Notes: generated by a model from the letters alone, not told the origin. Shown: positions 37,787 through 45,569, counted from the first letter of the stretch. The stretch: DNA of 64,000 bases from Chloroflexota bacterium (GCA_009840625.1 VXNJ01000016.1:1-64000); one strand, 5' to 3'. Numbers and translations are program-made.

Positions 37787-39064
37787 GTGCTCGACGTTGG
37801 CCGCCGGCCGTTGGCCCGGTTCCCGGGCGGCGACATCGAACTGGGAAGCTGGCTGATCGAATCCGACACCCTGGAGGAGGCCGCCGCCAGGATCGGAAAT
37901 TTCGACGCCGACAACCGGGCCGGAGTCGTGGGCACGCTGCACCGGGTGTCGGCGATCCGCAACCGCAGCGGCCGGATCGTGGGCCTCACGCTGCGACGCG
38001 GCCGCGCGATCTACGGGCAGGTGGCCATGGTCCGCGACGTGATCGACTCGCGCCGCTCGGTCCTGCTGGTCGGTCGCCCCGGGGTCGGCAAGACGACGCT
38101 GCTACGCGAAATCGCGCGCGAACTAGCCGACGGGATGGGGCGAAGGGTACTGGTGGTGGACACCTCGAACGAAATTGCCGGCGATGGAGACATCCCGCAT
38201 CCGGGCATCGGCGGCGCGCGCCGGATGCAGGTTCCGGCGCCGGACCGTCAGCACCAAGTGATGATCGAAGCGGTTGAAAACCACATGCCCGAAGTCCTGA
38301 TCATCGACGAAATCGGGACCATTGCCGAAGCCCGGGCGGCGCGAACGATCGCCGAGCGCGGCATCCAGCTGGTGGCCACCGCGCACGGCAACAGCCTGCA
38401 AAACCTGATCACCAACCCAACCCTGAACGTGCTCGTGGGCGGGATCGAGAACGTGATCCTGGGCGACCGCGAAGCCCGGCGCCGCCGAACCCGCAAGGCC
38501 GTACTGGAAAGGCGCGGCGCGCCGACCTTTGATGTCCTGATCGAAATCGCGCGTCGCAACCAGCTGTTGGTGCACACCAACCTGGCTCATGCCACCGATG
38601 CAGTCTTGGCGGGAGAACCGCTGGCCGCGGAGATGCGGACCCTGCAAGACGAGGGGGTCCAGATAGATCGCCGCACATTGCGCCCGGCCAGCTCCGACTG
38701 GGCCAAACTGGCCGAGGCGCCCGAGCAGGTCATCGCCGAAGCCACGTTCGAGCCTCCGCCGCTGGAGCCGTACCTGCACGGAATCTCCTCCGGCAAGATC
38801 CGCAAGGCGGCCCGCGCGCTGGGGATCACGGTGCGGCCGGTCCGCGAACTGGGTCACGCCGAATTGCTGATTACCACCCGATCGAGCTACCTCCACCGTG
38901 ATTCGACGCTGGACCGGGCGATCGATATGGACATGCCGGTCTTCGTTCTGGAGGGCACTTCGGTCGAGCGCGTCCGCAAGGGTCTGGCCAAGGCGTTCGC
39001 GGCCCTGCGTCTGCAATCCGGGTCCGGCGACGGATCCGTCAGCTCCTATCTGAGCAGCGCCTGA
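37787..39064 (+). CDS. Ycf45/SpoIIIAA-like AAA ATPase with R3H-type C-terminus
   Basis: This ATPase resembles the chloroplast Ycf45/SpoIIIAA group. It has Walker A LVGRPGVGKTTLLREIARELA, Walker B VLIIDEIGTIAEARAARTIAERGIQLVATAHGN, then GGIENVILGDREARRR, and a C-terminal region (YLHRDSTLDRAIDMDMPVFVL) resembling R3H nucleic-acid-binding domains. GTG 37787 is the first ordinary start codon, but about 45 codons upstream are open and read like the family's N-terminus (EELDALLGLLPQSVAEPIRS, then ALIEV before the GTG). The true start is therefore probably an unusual codon such as CTG 37649 or ATC 37598. The role is unknown; it lies between pdxT and tmk. Confidence 0.85.
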   Translation: MLDVGRRPLARFPGGDIELGSWLIESDTLEEAAARIGNFDADNRAGVVGTLHRVSAIRNRSGRIVGLTLRRGRAIYGQVAMVRDVIDSRRSVLLVGRPGVGKTTLLREIARELADGMGRRVLVVDTSNEIAGDGDIPHPGIGGARRMQVPAPDRQHQVMIEAVENHMPEVLIIDEIGTIAEARAARTIAERGIQLVATAHGNSLQNLITNPTLNVLVGGIENVILGDREARRRRTRKAVLERRGAPTFDVLIEIARRNQLLVHTNLAHATDAVLAGEPLAAEMRTLQDEGVQIDRRTLRPASSDWAKLAEAPEQVIAEATFEPPPLEPYLHGISSGKIRKAARALGITVRPVRELGHAELLITTRSSYLHRDSTLDRAIDMDMPVFVLEGTSVERVRKGLAKAFAALRLQSGSGDGSVSSYLSSA

Positions 39065-40490: not shown

Positions 40491-41114
40491 TCACTTCAAG
40501 TGATCGCGGTATACGCCGACCACCACTCCACGGATTTCAAGCCGGTTCGTATCAATCGGGTCGTGTTCGGAATTTGCGGGTTTGAGCAAATACCGAAAGC
40601 GCCCGTTGCGGTAAAAGCGCTTTAGCGTGGCTTCCTCGTCTCCCAGAATCGCAACCACCACGTCGCCGTCGTCGGCGGTGTTCTGGCGCCGCACAAGCAC
40701 GCGGTCCCCGTCCAGGATGTGGTCGTCGACCATGGAGTCGCCGCGAACTTCAAGCGCGTAATAGTCGCGCGGATCGTCGGGCGAGACCGTCTCCGGCAGC
40801 GGCACGTAACCCTGGTGGTCGGTGATGGCCTCGATCGGCGAACCGGCAGCGATCGCGCCTATGATCTGGGCCGCCCGGACCTGCAGGCACTCGTCGGATT
40901 CGGGATCGTAATTGGCGGTAATCCCGTGGGCCTCGCCGGTGCGCCTGATGTAGTTCTTGCGATCAAGCGCCACCAGGTGTGCCTGCACCGACGCGGCCGA
41001 AAGCCCCAATTGCTCACCGATCTGGCGAACGCTCGGGCTGTAGCCGTTCTCCACCTGGAATGCCCTGATTACGTCTAGCACCCGCCGCTGTTTTGCAGTC
41101 AACGACCTTGCCAT
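40491..41114 (-). CDS. lexA: LexA repressor
   Basis: LexA is the SOS repressor with self-cleavage activity. The 207-residue protein has the N-terminal helix-turn-helix (LTAKQRRVLDVIRAFQVENGYSPSVRQIGEQLGLSAASVQAHL). The Ala-Gly cleavage site is in GAIAAGSPIEAI, the catalytic Ser in VRGDSMVDDHILDGD, and the Lys in VVVAILGDEEATLKRFY. All are intact. ATG 41114 is preferred because AGGA sits nine bases upstream; GTG 41120 is possible. It is divergent from the tandem-AAA gene, and an inverted repeat in the gap may be its operator. Confidence 0.95.
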   Translation of the reverse strand: MARSLTAKQRRVLDVIRAFQVENGYSPSVRQIGEQLGLSAASVQAHLVALDRKNYIRRTGEAHGITANYDPESDECLQVRAAQIIGAIAAGSPIEAITDHQGYVPLPETVSPDDPRDYYALEVRGDSMVDDHILDGDRVLVRRQNTADDGDVVVAILGDEEATLKRFYRNGRFRYLLKPANSEHDPIDTNRLEIRGVVVGVYRDHLK

Positions 41115-41148
41115 CGACACCCATCCTGATCATCGTTCGAGTTTCATC

Positions 41149-41329: not shown

Positions 41330-43642
41330 TTGCTTGACCTGATTCGACGACTGATCCCCGAGATCGGCGGTCCGGCCCACGAAGATGGGCGGGCCGAAGA
41401 AGAGGCGACCGGCCAGAAGATTGCTCCCGGCGAGGTCTTGCAGCTGGGACCCGAGGTCGAGATCGGTCACGACTGGTTCGAGGTGAAGGGCCGGCGTTTT
41501 CCGCGCCTTAAGGAGCGCGTCCGCCAGGCCCTGCCCGAAGACGCCTCCCATTTCCGGCCCGCGGAAGCCGACGACTTCTCCCAGTCGGTTCCCCGGCGTC
41601 ACGAGATTTTTGCCCACCTGACCGCCGACATGGCCGACTTGCTGGAACGAATTGCCGAGATCGATTCCAATCCGCGGCTGGGTTCAATGATGCTGATTTC
41701 CGGGCCCACCGGTTGCGGCAAGACAACCCTCGCCAAGACCTACTGCTTCGCCGCCAACCTGCCGATCACCGAGCTGAATTTCTCGGGCGACTCCACCCTG
41801 ACCGATTTCTTCCACCGCACCGAGGTCATCACCGACGCGGCCGGGACCCAGACCACCCAGGTAATGCTCGGGCCGGCCGCGGAAGCGATGCTCTACGGCA
41901 AAAAACTGCTCATCAACGAACTGAACATGCTTCCGGCCGACCTGATGAGCGCCATAACTTCGGCGGTCGACACCGGACGCCTGCTGCTCTCATCGACCCG
42001 GATGGGCAACGTCGAAATCGCGCTGCACGAGGACTTCGGGATCATCGCGACCGCGAACCCCGACTACATCGGTACCTCGGAAATGGGCAAACCGCTGCGG
42101 CGACGCTTCGGGGTCGGCCTGGGTGACATCACCATGGGATTCCTTCCGCCCGAGCAGGAAACCGAATCGCTCCTGGCCGAATTCGGGCGCATCAGGCTGC
42201 TGGAGGCGGCCGGTATCGAAGCCGATCCCGGTATCGCCGAGCGGCTGGTGGCGGTCGCCGACCGGCTCCGCAATCACCAGGATTTCGGCGCCCGGATGCG
42301 CGACCGCATTTCAACCCGGGCCCTTCTCCACTGGCTGGCAACCGGTTACCTCACCGGCCTGCCGATGGCTGAGATCGGCGCCCGCGCGGTCCTGACCATC
42401 GCTCCCGGCGACATCTTTGACGAGGTGGCCCGCACCGCCGCCAAGATGTTGGGTGGCCTGCGCGCCGCCGACGGTCCCCCGCGGCGTCTCGCCGGCGCCC
42501 TGCTCTCGCGCAAGGGGCCCGAACCGGGGCAGGCCGTGCCCGTGCCCGAACTCGATCACCCGCTCGAAGAGGAACCGGACGCGGTCAGCGAATCGGTCGA
42601 CGGAGCGGCGATCGAACTCAGTGACGGGGTCAGGGTCGCGGTGGCTCCACGCGAGGCGGGGGCCCCGCGACTTGCCGCCTTCGACCGCCGCGGGCAGCCG
42701 ATTTCCGACCGCAGCGAGCTGGCCACGGTTCGATCGCAACTGCGCCGCCAGCTCAACATCAATCTGCCCCAACCGCTGGGCAATCCGCCCGAGCGGGACC
42801 GGATCCTGCCGTGCCTTACGGGCACCACCCACGGCGCCCTGCAACTGGCCCAGAGCGCGGTCCTGCTGGGCTGGCCGGTGCTGCTGCGCGGCCCCTCGGG
42901 GTGTGGCAAATCGGCCCTGGCCCGAACCCTGGCCGCGCAATGGCATTTGCCGGTGGTCGAGTTCTCCTTCACCGGCGAGACCGACAAGAGCGATCTGACC
43001 GCGGTGCGCCAGATGCGTGCCGGCCGCACCCGCTGGAACGTGCAGGCGTTCATGGAGGCGGTCCAGGCCGGCTATTTCGTAATCATCAATGAGTACAACC
43101 TCGCCTACCCGGACGTGCACTCGATCATCAACGGCCTATTCGACAAGGCCGGACTCGTGACCCTGCCGGACGGATCCCAGTTCCGGGCCCACCCCCACTT
43201 CCGCCTGGTGGCGACCGCCGCGCCCGACGGCCCCGGGGTCAAACCCCTCAATGAGGGCGTGGAGAACCGGTTCGGGGCCGTAATCGCGATGGACTACCCC
43301 CCTCCGGAAGAAGAGCGGGCCATCCTGGCCGCAATCGCCGCCCCCGACGCCGATCCGCAGGTGCTCGACTCGCTCTGCCAATTGGCCAATACCTCGCGTC
43401 GGCTGCTAGCCGGCGACCTGGACGAGCAGGCCGGCGAAGGCTTCGGCAACATTCCGCCCGACCTGGCCTCGGGCGTCGCCGAGCGCACCGCCCTCACCAC
43501 GGCCGAACTGGTGATGCTGGCCCGCGGCTCCAGGGACCGCGCCGAACTGGTCGCCTGGTATCGGCGGGGAGTCATCGAGGGCGCCAGCGAGGAGATAGAG
43601 CGGGTGCTGGAACCGGTCCTGGCCAACTATGGACTCGCCTGA
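41330..43642 (+). CDS. tandem midasin/MoxR-like AAA+ ATPase
   Basis: This 770-residue protein has two AAA_5-type (MoxR/CobS/midasin-like) ATPase modules. Module 1 has Walker A GPTGCGKT at residues 125-132 and LLINELN at 193-199, then a sensor region (FGIIATANPD) and RRRF arginine fingers. A linker follows at about 375-480. Module 2 has Walker A GPSGCGKS at 521-528 and FVIINEYNLA at about 583-592, LVATAAPDG and ENRF. In both modules Walker B reads Asn-Glu where Asp-Glu is usual. Such ATPases work with VWA proteins to remodel or insert metal cofactors into targets, and the overlapping downstream gene is a VWA protein. The start is TTG 41330. The client protein is unknown. Confidence 0.85.
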   Translation: MLDLIRRLIPEIGGPAHEDGRAEEEATGQKIAPGEVLQLGPEVEIGHDWFEVKGRRFPRLKERVRQALPEDASHFRPAEADDFSQSVPRRHEIFAHLTADMADLLERIAEIDSNPRLGSMMLISGPTGCGKTTLAKTYCFAANLPITELNFSGDSTLTDFFHRTEVITDAAGTQTTQVMLGPAAEAMLYGKKLLINELNMLPADLMSAITSAVDTGRLLLSSTRMGNVEIALHEDFGIIATANPDYIGTSEMGKPLRRRFGVGLGDITMGFLPPEQETESLLAEFGRIRLLEAAGIEADPGIAERLVAVADRLRNHQDFGARMRDRISTRALLHWLATGYLTGLPMAEIGARAVLTIAPGDIFDEVARTAAKMLGGLRAADGPPRRLAGALLSRKGPEPGQAVPVPELDHPLEEEPDAVSESVDGAAIELSDGVRVAVAPREAGAPRLAAFDRRGQPISDRSELATVRSQLRRQLNINLPQPLGNPPERDRILPCLTGTTHGALQLAQSAVLLGWPVLLRGPSGCGKSALARTLAAQWHLPVVEFSFTGETDKSDLTAVRQMRAGRTRWNVQAFMEAVQAGYFVIINEYNLAYPDVHSIINGLFDKAGLVTLPDGSQFRAHPHFRLVATAAPDGPGVKPLNEGVENRFGAVIAMDYPPPEEERAILAAIAAPDADPQVLDSLCQLANTSRRLLAGDLDEQAGEGFGNIPPDLASGVAERTALTTAELVMLARGSRDRAELVAWYRRGVIEGASEEIERVLEPVLANYGLA

Positions 43643-45569
43643 GCACCTAGCGGCCGTCACCGGCGGCAGCACCGTCAAAAGCGGCGGGATCCTGCCCGGT
43701 GAACTCGAACTGGCCACCCGTTTGATCCTGGGCGATCGCGAACTGGCAGTGCTTCCCGGTCCCTGGTGGGCCTATCTGCCCGAAGAACGCCTGATCACCT
43801 ATCCCGAAGCCCTGACTCGCACCTGGTCGGATGAGCGCCTCGTCGGCGGTATGTGCCACCAGGTGGCCGAGGCGTTTTACACCGGACGAAGGGGTCGTAA
43901 CCGCATCGAATACTGGCTGCGCCAGCAGCGCCGGCACGGGTATCCGGCCGATTCGATGCGGCTGCTGGCTCTGACGGTCAACGACCTGCGGGTGAACCGG
44001 CTATATCTGCAGCGCCGGCCCGGGGCGGGTCCGTACTTCAGCGAGCTGTATCGAGTCTTGCCCGACCTGGAGCCGCGGTCCGACGTGGGCGCGCCGCCGG
44101 ACAGCTCCGGATTCTTGCGTCCGCCGCACCACCTGTTCCTCGACGCCCTCACCACCAGGGCGGTCAACCGGCGTTGGCCGGGAAATTGCGAGACGCCGTT
44201 CACGCCGGAGATGATCCAGGACGCGCTGGATCAGACCGACCGCGACGTGGAGCGCGCCATCGAATCAGACGACGTCGAATCGATGCTGCGGCGCCTCACC
44301 GGCAAGACCGCCCGGACCTACGCCGGATTGATCGGCGAATGGCAGGCGATGTCGCAGCAAACCGATCGGCCGGCCGGCGAGGAGGGCGGACAGCCGAACG
44401 CCCCCGCCGGCGAACAGGATGCGACTGCGGCGCGCGCCAATGCCGAAACGGCCGAAGGCGAGATCGGCGAGGAAGCCCTGCAGCTGCGCAGCGGGTCGGG
44501 AAGCTCGGAAGCGGTCCAGCGCGCGCGGCAGCGATTGCAGCAGCGCAAGATCGCCTCGCTGCGGGTGCGCGGCGCCCGCCGGCTGTTGGACCGCGAGCGC
44601 AATTCCCACCAGAGTCCGCGCTGGGCGGCCGAACTGGTCGAGGCGATTCGGCGCGGCGAAGCTGACGAGCGGGTCGACTACGAGAACTTCGACTACCTGG
44701 CCGCGGTCAACCGCCTGGAGAAGGGGATCAAGGCCACGGTCGAGGGAGACGGGCGCCATCCGGGCCTTGCCCAGATCATGGACCGTCGCCGGCAAGGCGA
44801 GTCCGAGGCGCACCGCCGCCCGCGAAAACGGCGATCGGGCGAGACCGGCAACATCGACCTGCAACGGCCCGAACGGGTGCTGACCGACCCGCTCAATGCA
44901 TTCCTCAAAGGATTGCGCGTGCCGCGCCAGGACCGCCAGCGCGACTTTGCCAGCTCGATCCTGCTGGACATCTCGGGGTCGATGGTCCAGAAGGGTTATC
45001 CGACCCGCAAGTTCGACCGGCTGGCCGACTCAGCGATCCTGTTCATCGAGATCCACGAGCGGCTGCGGATCCCCTTCGAGGTGATCGCTTTCTCCTCGCA
45101 GGTGACTCCGCTGTGGACGTTCGAGGAGTGCGTCTGGCCACGCCAGCTATCGGGTCGCGCCGCACCCTACGAGCCGCGCGACCACGCCGAAATCTTCAAG
45201 CGCCTCTATGACCTGGACCACAAGGACACCGACGACGCCGGGGCGCTGGCGGTGGCGCTGGAGCGGAGCCGCGAGCAGAAAGGCTTGAAAAGCGTATTCG
45301 TGGTAACCGACGGGATCTCCTCCGACCCGGCGCTGCTGCGCCGGGCCCTGATCGATATGCACCGCCGCAACCAAGCCGCCCTGCCGGACCAGCGCTACAA
45401 GGTGCTCGCGTTCGGCGTTGGCGTGGTCAAGTCGGAATTCCAACTGGCCTATCAGCCCACCCACGACGGCAAACCGCTGGCGTCCTGCGCGGGCGCGGTG
45501 GTCGAGAACGTGGCCGCGCTGCCGGAAATAATCCGCAGCGCCGTCGACGAGCGCATCCGCTATCTGTAG
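43629..45569 (+). CDS. VWA-domain protein, partner of the tandem AAA+ ATPase
   Basis: This 646-residue protein has a C-terminal von Willebrand A domain, with the MIDAS motif in SILLDISGSMVQKG (residues about 443-456), a Thr in DHKDTDDAGALAVAL and Asp in FVVTDGISSDP. It resembles the VWA half of CobT/CbbO/NorD-type partners. The N-terminal 230 residues (PGPWWAYLPEERLITYPE) form a conserved-looking domain without a name. Residues about 245-290 are an acidic, low-complexity linker, and 300-410 are rich in Arg. It overlaps the ATPase gene by 14 bases, so the two are made together. No signal peptide is present, so it acts in the cytoplasm. Confidence 0.85.
   Translation: MDSPEHLAAVTGGSTVKSGGILPGELELATRLILGDRELAVLPGPWWAYLPEERLITYPEALTRTWSDERLVGGMCHQVAEAFYTGRRGRNRIEYWLRQQRRHGYPADSMRLLALTVNDLRVNRLYLQRRPGAGPYFSELYRVLPDLEPRSDVGAPPDSSGFLRPPHHLFLDALTTRAVNRRWPGNCETPFTPEMIQDALDQTDRDVERAIESDDVESMLRRLTGKTARTYAGLIGEWQAMSQQTDRPAGEEGGQPNAPAGEQDATAARANAETAEGEIGEEALQLRSGSGSSEAVQRARQRLQQRKIASLRVRGARRLLDRERNSHQSPRWAAELVEAIRRGEADERVDYENFDYLAAVNRLEKGIKATVEGDGRHPGLAQIMDRRRQGESEAHRRPRKRRSGETGNIDLQRPERVLTDPLNAFLKGLRVPRQDRQRDFASSILLDISGSMVQKGYPTRKFDRLADSAILFIEIHERLRIPFEVIAFSSQVTPLWTFEECVWPRQLSGRAAPYEPRDHAEIFKRLYDLDHKDTDDAGALAVALERSREQKGLKSVFVVTDGISSDPALLRRALIDMHRRNQAALPDQRYKVLAFGVGVVKSEFQLAYQPTHDGKPLASCAGAVVENVAALPEIIRSAVDERIRYL

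Follow-up and report, generated by a model that had tools for sequence, protein, structure and literature searches.

An unnamed, conserved gene pair of Chloroflexota: a tandem AAA_5 ATPase with Asn in its Walker B motifs and a VWA partner of the MoxR/VWA kind

The stretch of DNA analysed here (the window: 64,000 nucleotides of a Chloroflexota bacterium, GCA_009840625.1 VXNJ01000016.1:1-64000) holds two overlapping genes, one for an ATPase of 770 residues with two AAA_5 modules in tandem, and one for a protein of 646 residues that ends in a von Willebrand factor A (VWA) domain. The pair had been picked out by an earlier reading of the sequence alone (the sequence-only reading), and both the lengths and the 14-nucleotide overlap given there were confirmed at the level of the open reading frames:

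41330..43642, plus strand: tandem AAA_5 ATPase (MoxR/dynein-related clade) with a TTG start; open reading frame, Pfam and alignment of homologues
43629..45569, plus strand: VWA partner protein, 646 residues, overlapping the ATPase gene by 14 nucleotides; open reading frame and Pfam

Pfam recognised two AAA_5 stretches in the ATPase (3.3e-35, 121.5 bits with a cut-off of 22) and a VWA_2 domain at the C-terminus of its partner (1.9e-6). The TTG start of the ATPase is supported, since Met1 and the N-terminus line up in all homologues. An AlphaFold model of this protein, built from an alignment of 10 rows, was predicted with a mean local distance difference test score (pLDDT) of 73.8, and scans for promoters and terminators gave nothing informative. 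The identity of the gene pair as a machine of the MoxR/VWA type is well supported: the ATPase lies over the Pfam cut-off, and the adjacent, co-occurring VWA gene encodes a complete metal ion-dependent adhesion site (MIDAS). Machines of this type serve to activate or assemble enzymes; to our knowledge, those described have one AAA module per chain.

All motifs quoted in the sequence-only reading (GPTGCGKT, GPSGCGKS, LLINELN and FVIINEYN in the ATPase, DISGSM at residue 447 of the VWA protein) are present. Sensors and arginine fingers were assigned by alignment with CbbQ, MoxR and GvpN together with a count over the family. Walker B counts refer to 30 sequences for module 1 and 31 for module 2, with one further row (NF, probably a fragment) kept apart.

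41702..41725, plus strand: module 1 Walker A GPTGCGKT, residues 125-132; no variation among the sequences that cover it
41906..41926, plus strand: module 1 Walker B LLINELN (from residue 193), Asn196-Glu197 replacing Asp-Glu; N-E in 30/30
42056..42058, plus strand: module 1 sensor-1 Asn243 (ATANP); invariant, aligned to the Asn of CbbQ SYNP
42101..42109, plus strand: module 1 arginine finger region RRF, residues 258-260; RRF in 29/30, RRL in 1
42317..42319, plus strand: module 1 sensor-2 Arg330 (STRAL); conserved, aligned to CbbQ ISTRMLV
42890..42913, plus strand: module 2 Walker A GPSGCGKS, residues 521-528; GPxGxGKS in all sequences covering it
43076..43099, plus strand: module 2 Walker B FVIINEYN (from residue 583), Asn587-Glu588; N-E in 23, N-D in 8
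43217..43225, plus strand: module 2 sensor-1 position lacking the Asn, AAP here and G[FYQA]x in relatives; alignment
43268..43270, plus strand: module 2 arginine finger Arg647 (ENRFG); NRF in 31/31
43502..43504, plus strand: module 2 sensor-2 position with Ala725 replacing Arg, [ST]TAEL; 31/31, the register set by motif likeness, not by structure superposition

Both modules of the window protein thus have Asn-Glu as the Walker B pair, as had been read, and the homologues do not return to Asp-Glu: N-E is fixed in module 1, and module 2 has either N-E or N-D. The Walker B Asp helps hold magnesium in P-loop nucleoside triphosphatases, and the Asp-Glu pair that is usual in the clade, although not a defining trait of it, was found in no member of this family. 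It was present in 13 GvpN sequences, three CbbQ-type ATPases and one Bacillus MoxR used as comparators, as well as in three MoxR-type relatives from the same genome. A scan of genome contigs with a single sequence picked up no more than distant relatives with one module, in Myxococcota and Planctomycetota, all of them with Asp-Glu, and the same pair was seen in every viral AAA_5 relative examined save one. The exception (INEFT; L115 4911-5883) is a single-module AAA_5 protein of a viral contig with an N-E Walker B (LTLVINEFT), and its branch is very long. A literature search for natural Asn variants of Walker B returned nothing relevant.

The sequence-only reading had implied that the two modules are equals, which they are not. 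Apart from the Walker B Asn, module 1 keeps every catalytic motif, whereas in module 2 Walker A and the arginine finger are retained but both the sensor-1 Asn and the sensor-2 Arg are missing. A mixture of functional and non-functional modules is also found in Rea1, where AAA1 and AAA6 are without Walker B (PMC6286127). Since no member has the Walker B Asp in either module, Asn standing in its place, it could be argued that neither module hydrolyses ATP usefully and that the protein serves as an ATP-bound scaffold or switch which presents its VWA partner. We consider this unlikely, because module 1 strictly keeps the catalytic Glu, the sensor-1 Asn, the arginine finger and the sensor-2 Arg, and a pure scaffold would need none of these.

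The partner protein can be divided into five parts:

43686..44363, plus strand: predicted N-terminal helical domain, about residues 20-245; confident all-helical model
44364..44669, plus strand: linker, about residues 246-347, of low confidence and poorly conserved; pLDDT <50, unconserved columns
44784..44933, plus strand: basic, highly conserved pre-VWA segment, residues 386-435 (RRPRKxRxGdxGeID...), a candidate pore-inserting finger; invariant residues
44946..45566, plus strand: VWA domain with complete MIDAS D447, S449, S451, T534 and D561; all five invariant
45552..45560, plus strand: C-terminal R-I-R motif, residues 642-644; kept in four families

In one family the protein ends a few residues later and is without R-I-R. 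No relative of the N-terminal domain was found in Pfam or the PDB. In fold searches the VWA part came closest to the MIDAS domain of Rea1 (midasin) and the VWA domain of NorD, and a profile search of the PDB gave a weak match to CobT (E 0.047) in which the pre-VWA stretch was aligned. In NorQD, the pore receives a finger of the VWA domain, and the C-terminus of NorD touches the post-sensor-1 loop (PMC13036017). By analogy, the pre-VWA segment and the R-I-R motif are candidates for the NorD-like finger and C-terminal roles.

The tandem protein is a real family, far beyond what chance would give. It is encoded by a single copy in the window's genome; 25 of 61 relatives have it, as do 31 of 400 genomes drawn from across the phylum (six families, 13 of 224 genera), always with the Walker B Asn described above. 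A search with the VWA alignment matched 30 genomes, which are exactly the AAA-positive ones minus the window's own; the latter was not among the matches, though its VWA gene sits in the window. That the two genes occur together elsewhere, a point on which the sequence-only reading could have failed, is therefore borne out: ATPase and partner co-occur in 30/30 of the genomes covered by the VWA search, with neither found alone. Wherever the contig is unbroken the genes adjoin on one strand (the locus is split across contigs in two genomes). The 14-nucleotide overlap recurs in the window's family and in another family of its order, and is available in a third family, while the remaining families have overlaps of 4-8 nucleotides or short gaps. 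In a tree of the AAA modules, module 1 and module 2 formed one clade each with full support, and the tandem arrangement is for this reason old in the family. The VWA tree showed the same family grouping, and from the two trees the inheritance of the pair looks vertical. One genus of the order-mate family lacks the pair, as do two further families of the class, which suggests losses. We found no name for the pair in Pfam, NCBIfam, PADLOC, PHROGs or the literature searched. It is a tandem form of MoxR/VWA machine, conserved and unnamed, and co-occurrence and motif conservation together support the two-gene system with a paired Asn change that had been proposed for it.

The distribution also bears on a possible role in biological conflict or defence against phages. 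MoxR-vWA ternary conflict systems (with VMAP and iSTAND) likewise pair a MoxR-clade ATPase with a VWA gene, and they have been reported from chloroflexi (PMC7159879). Unlike them, the present pair has two AAA modules per chain, and no third conserved component or effector accompanies it: no gene beside the pair is common to all families, and the neighbours vary between families. In addition to the vertical-looking inheritance, PADLOC has no match to the VWA protein and only short, mostly P-loop, matches to the AAA protein, and homologues of the VWA protein were not found in plasmids or viral contigs. We therefore regard membership of such a system as very unlikely.

With respect to kinship, the sequence-only label of midasin-like stands for the architecture, but probably not for descent. 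As in midasin/Rea1, there is more than one AAA_5 module per chain, intact and degenerate sites are mixed, and the VWA domain is of the MIDAS type; however, midasin has six modules and the VWA in one chain, whereas here two modules are found and the VWA is on a separate chain. The midasin modules examined are moreover Asp-Glu or without the motif, and none is Asn-Glu. The whole-chain E-value for midasin (5e-45) is a sum over several domains, and homology on that ground was rejected, because the per-domain scores favour CbbQ (67.9 bits for the best single-module structure match, vs 47.8 for the best midasin module). A fold search with the ATPase yielded dynein and midasin rings in general, at low template modelling scores (TM-scores), and singled out no family. 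GvpN is the best NCBIfam profile for the ATPase, but an identity with it was also rejected, at 70.6 bits against a cut-off of 266.8 and with Asp-Glu in 13/13 GvpN; no GvpN was found in the window genome.

Parallels are also found with single-module systems. NorQ-NorD and CbbQ-CbbO provide the nearest single AAA modules among solved structures, have an adjacent VWA gene and, in NorD, a like VWA fold; the pre-VWA and C-terminal contacts may be shared as well. They differ in that the present ATPase has two diverged AAA modules per chain and an Asn-Glu Walker B (Asp-Glu in CbbQ), and in that no nitric oxide reductase or Rubisco genes lie alongside. CobS-CobT resembles the pair in the order of the partner (N-terminal domain, linker, conserved pre-VWA segment, VWA), and the best PHROG for the ATPase is a phage CobS-like family (phrog_249, 1.5e-51); CobS, however, has one AAA module, and CobN is missing from the window genome and from nearly all holders of the pair.

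These likenesses raise the question of whether the pair inserts metals or cofactors, in the manner of CobST, CbbQO, NorQD or CoxDE, into a client enzyme encoded elsewhere in the genome. The nearest single-module relatives, CbbQ, NorQ and CobS, together with the phage CobS-like match and a partner that is CobT-like before the VWA fold, speak for this, as does the presence of MoCoBD-type molybdenum hydroxylases in all members of the class. However, of 24 holders of the pair in this class a single one has CobN, and the Rubisco large subunit is missing from every holder of the class; this distribution led us to reject cobaltochelatase and Rubisco activase as client systems. The molybdenum hydroxylases are just as present in non-holders (41/41), and haem-copper oxidase is as common in non-holders and was not found in two holders, so that neither discriminates holders from non-holders. 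No cofactor enzyme adjoins the pair in any locus where the flanking genes were read, and in the window these genes bear out the earlier statement to this effect. Altogether, we consider a cofactor insertion role rather doubtful.

The genes near the pair in the window encode a thymidylate kinase (39103), a cyclic-di-AMP receptor (39845), an S1-domain protein (45715) and a ClpC-like protein (47069), with lexA directly upstream on the other strand; the names tmk, lexA and ClpC rest on reading the translations.

40491..41120, minus strand: lexA, divergent neighbour, judged to be outside the system; linkage not conserved

From this divergent lexA the sequence-only reading had drawn a possible stress-linked role, and lexA does adjoin the pair in the window, as it does in a second genus of the same family (L030). 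The linkage is not conserved beyond these two: lexA was not seen beside the pair in another genus of the window's family or in families outside the order, and in the order-mate family it lies a few genes away. There is no palindromic SOS-like box between lexA and the AAA gene, and a LexA box search gave one GAACNNNNGTTC match in the window, which equals the chance expectation and is not at the AAA/VWA locus. Control of the pair by LexA as part of a stress system is accordingly highly improbable.

A gene for a multi-pass membrane protein directly follows the VWA gene in 9/10 loci of the order-mate family and in 5/5 loci of another family. In the former (L038 10405-11271, with relatives in L035-L042 and L044) it encodes a protein of 284-328 residues without a Pfam family; in the latter (L045 6256-7200, with relatives in L046-L049) it encodes a different multi-pass membrane protein with a weak Rce1-like match, and the gene overlaps the VWA gene or lies at most 14 nucleotides away.

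Considering the above, the reading that we favour, at a probability of roughly 55%, is that of a dedicated ATP-driven remodelling chaperone of the MoxR/VWA kind, whose ATPase has two diverged AAA modules per chain. By reasoned inference, three tandem chains would form one six-module ring, in which putative hydrolysing sites (module 1) would alternate with sites that mainly hold ATP (module 2), each completed by the arginine finger of the neighbouring module; both modules carry arginine fingers, as a mixed ring would need. The VWA protein may enter this ring with its basic pre-VWA segment and its C-terminus, as NorD does in NorQ, and the MIDAS would then grip a client that the movements of the ring would twist. 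We advance this specific arrangement, with hydrolysing modules and ATP-holding ones taking turns in one mixed ring around a separate MIDAS protein and with Asn-Glu as the Walker B pair, as a tentative possibility and not as an expectation; two stacked rings of six would be the alternative. In the two families with a membrane protein encoded directly downstream, our best guess is for that reason a membrane-associated client or anchor. Against this view, no relationship can be recognised between the two membrane proteins, and the window's own family has neither of them; they may thus have no connection with the pair.

A conserved tandem of one intact and one degenerate module with a fixed Walker B Asn offers a small natural model for rings of unequal subunits, a question otherwise pursued in the very large midasin and dynein. 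The mixed ring, if true, would be an architecture midway between the homohexameric rings of MoxR proteins and the rings that midasin and dynein build from one chain.

Several minor observations were made along the way. In L049 (7543-10641) the tandem AAA frame is some 200 residues longer at its N-terminus than in relatives, and its start may be misplaced. From 10590 onwards in L037 (G019) there are two consecutive copies of the genes that follow the VWA gene and of a short C-terminal VWA fragment, owing either to a duplication or to an assembly artefact. An Agrobacterium plasmid (L181 1-5717) has a CbbQ-like ATPase and a VWA protein beside a gene for a tubulin-like protein. Finally, at 37787-39064 in the window, next to the thymidylate kinase and the cyclic-di-AMP receptor, a stage III sporulation AA-like ATPase is fused to a C-terminal domain that Pfam assigns to phosphotyrosine protein phosphatase.

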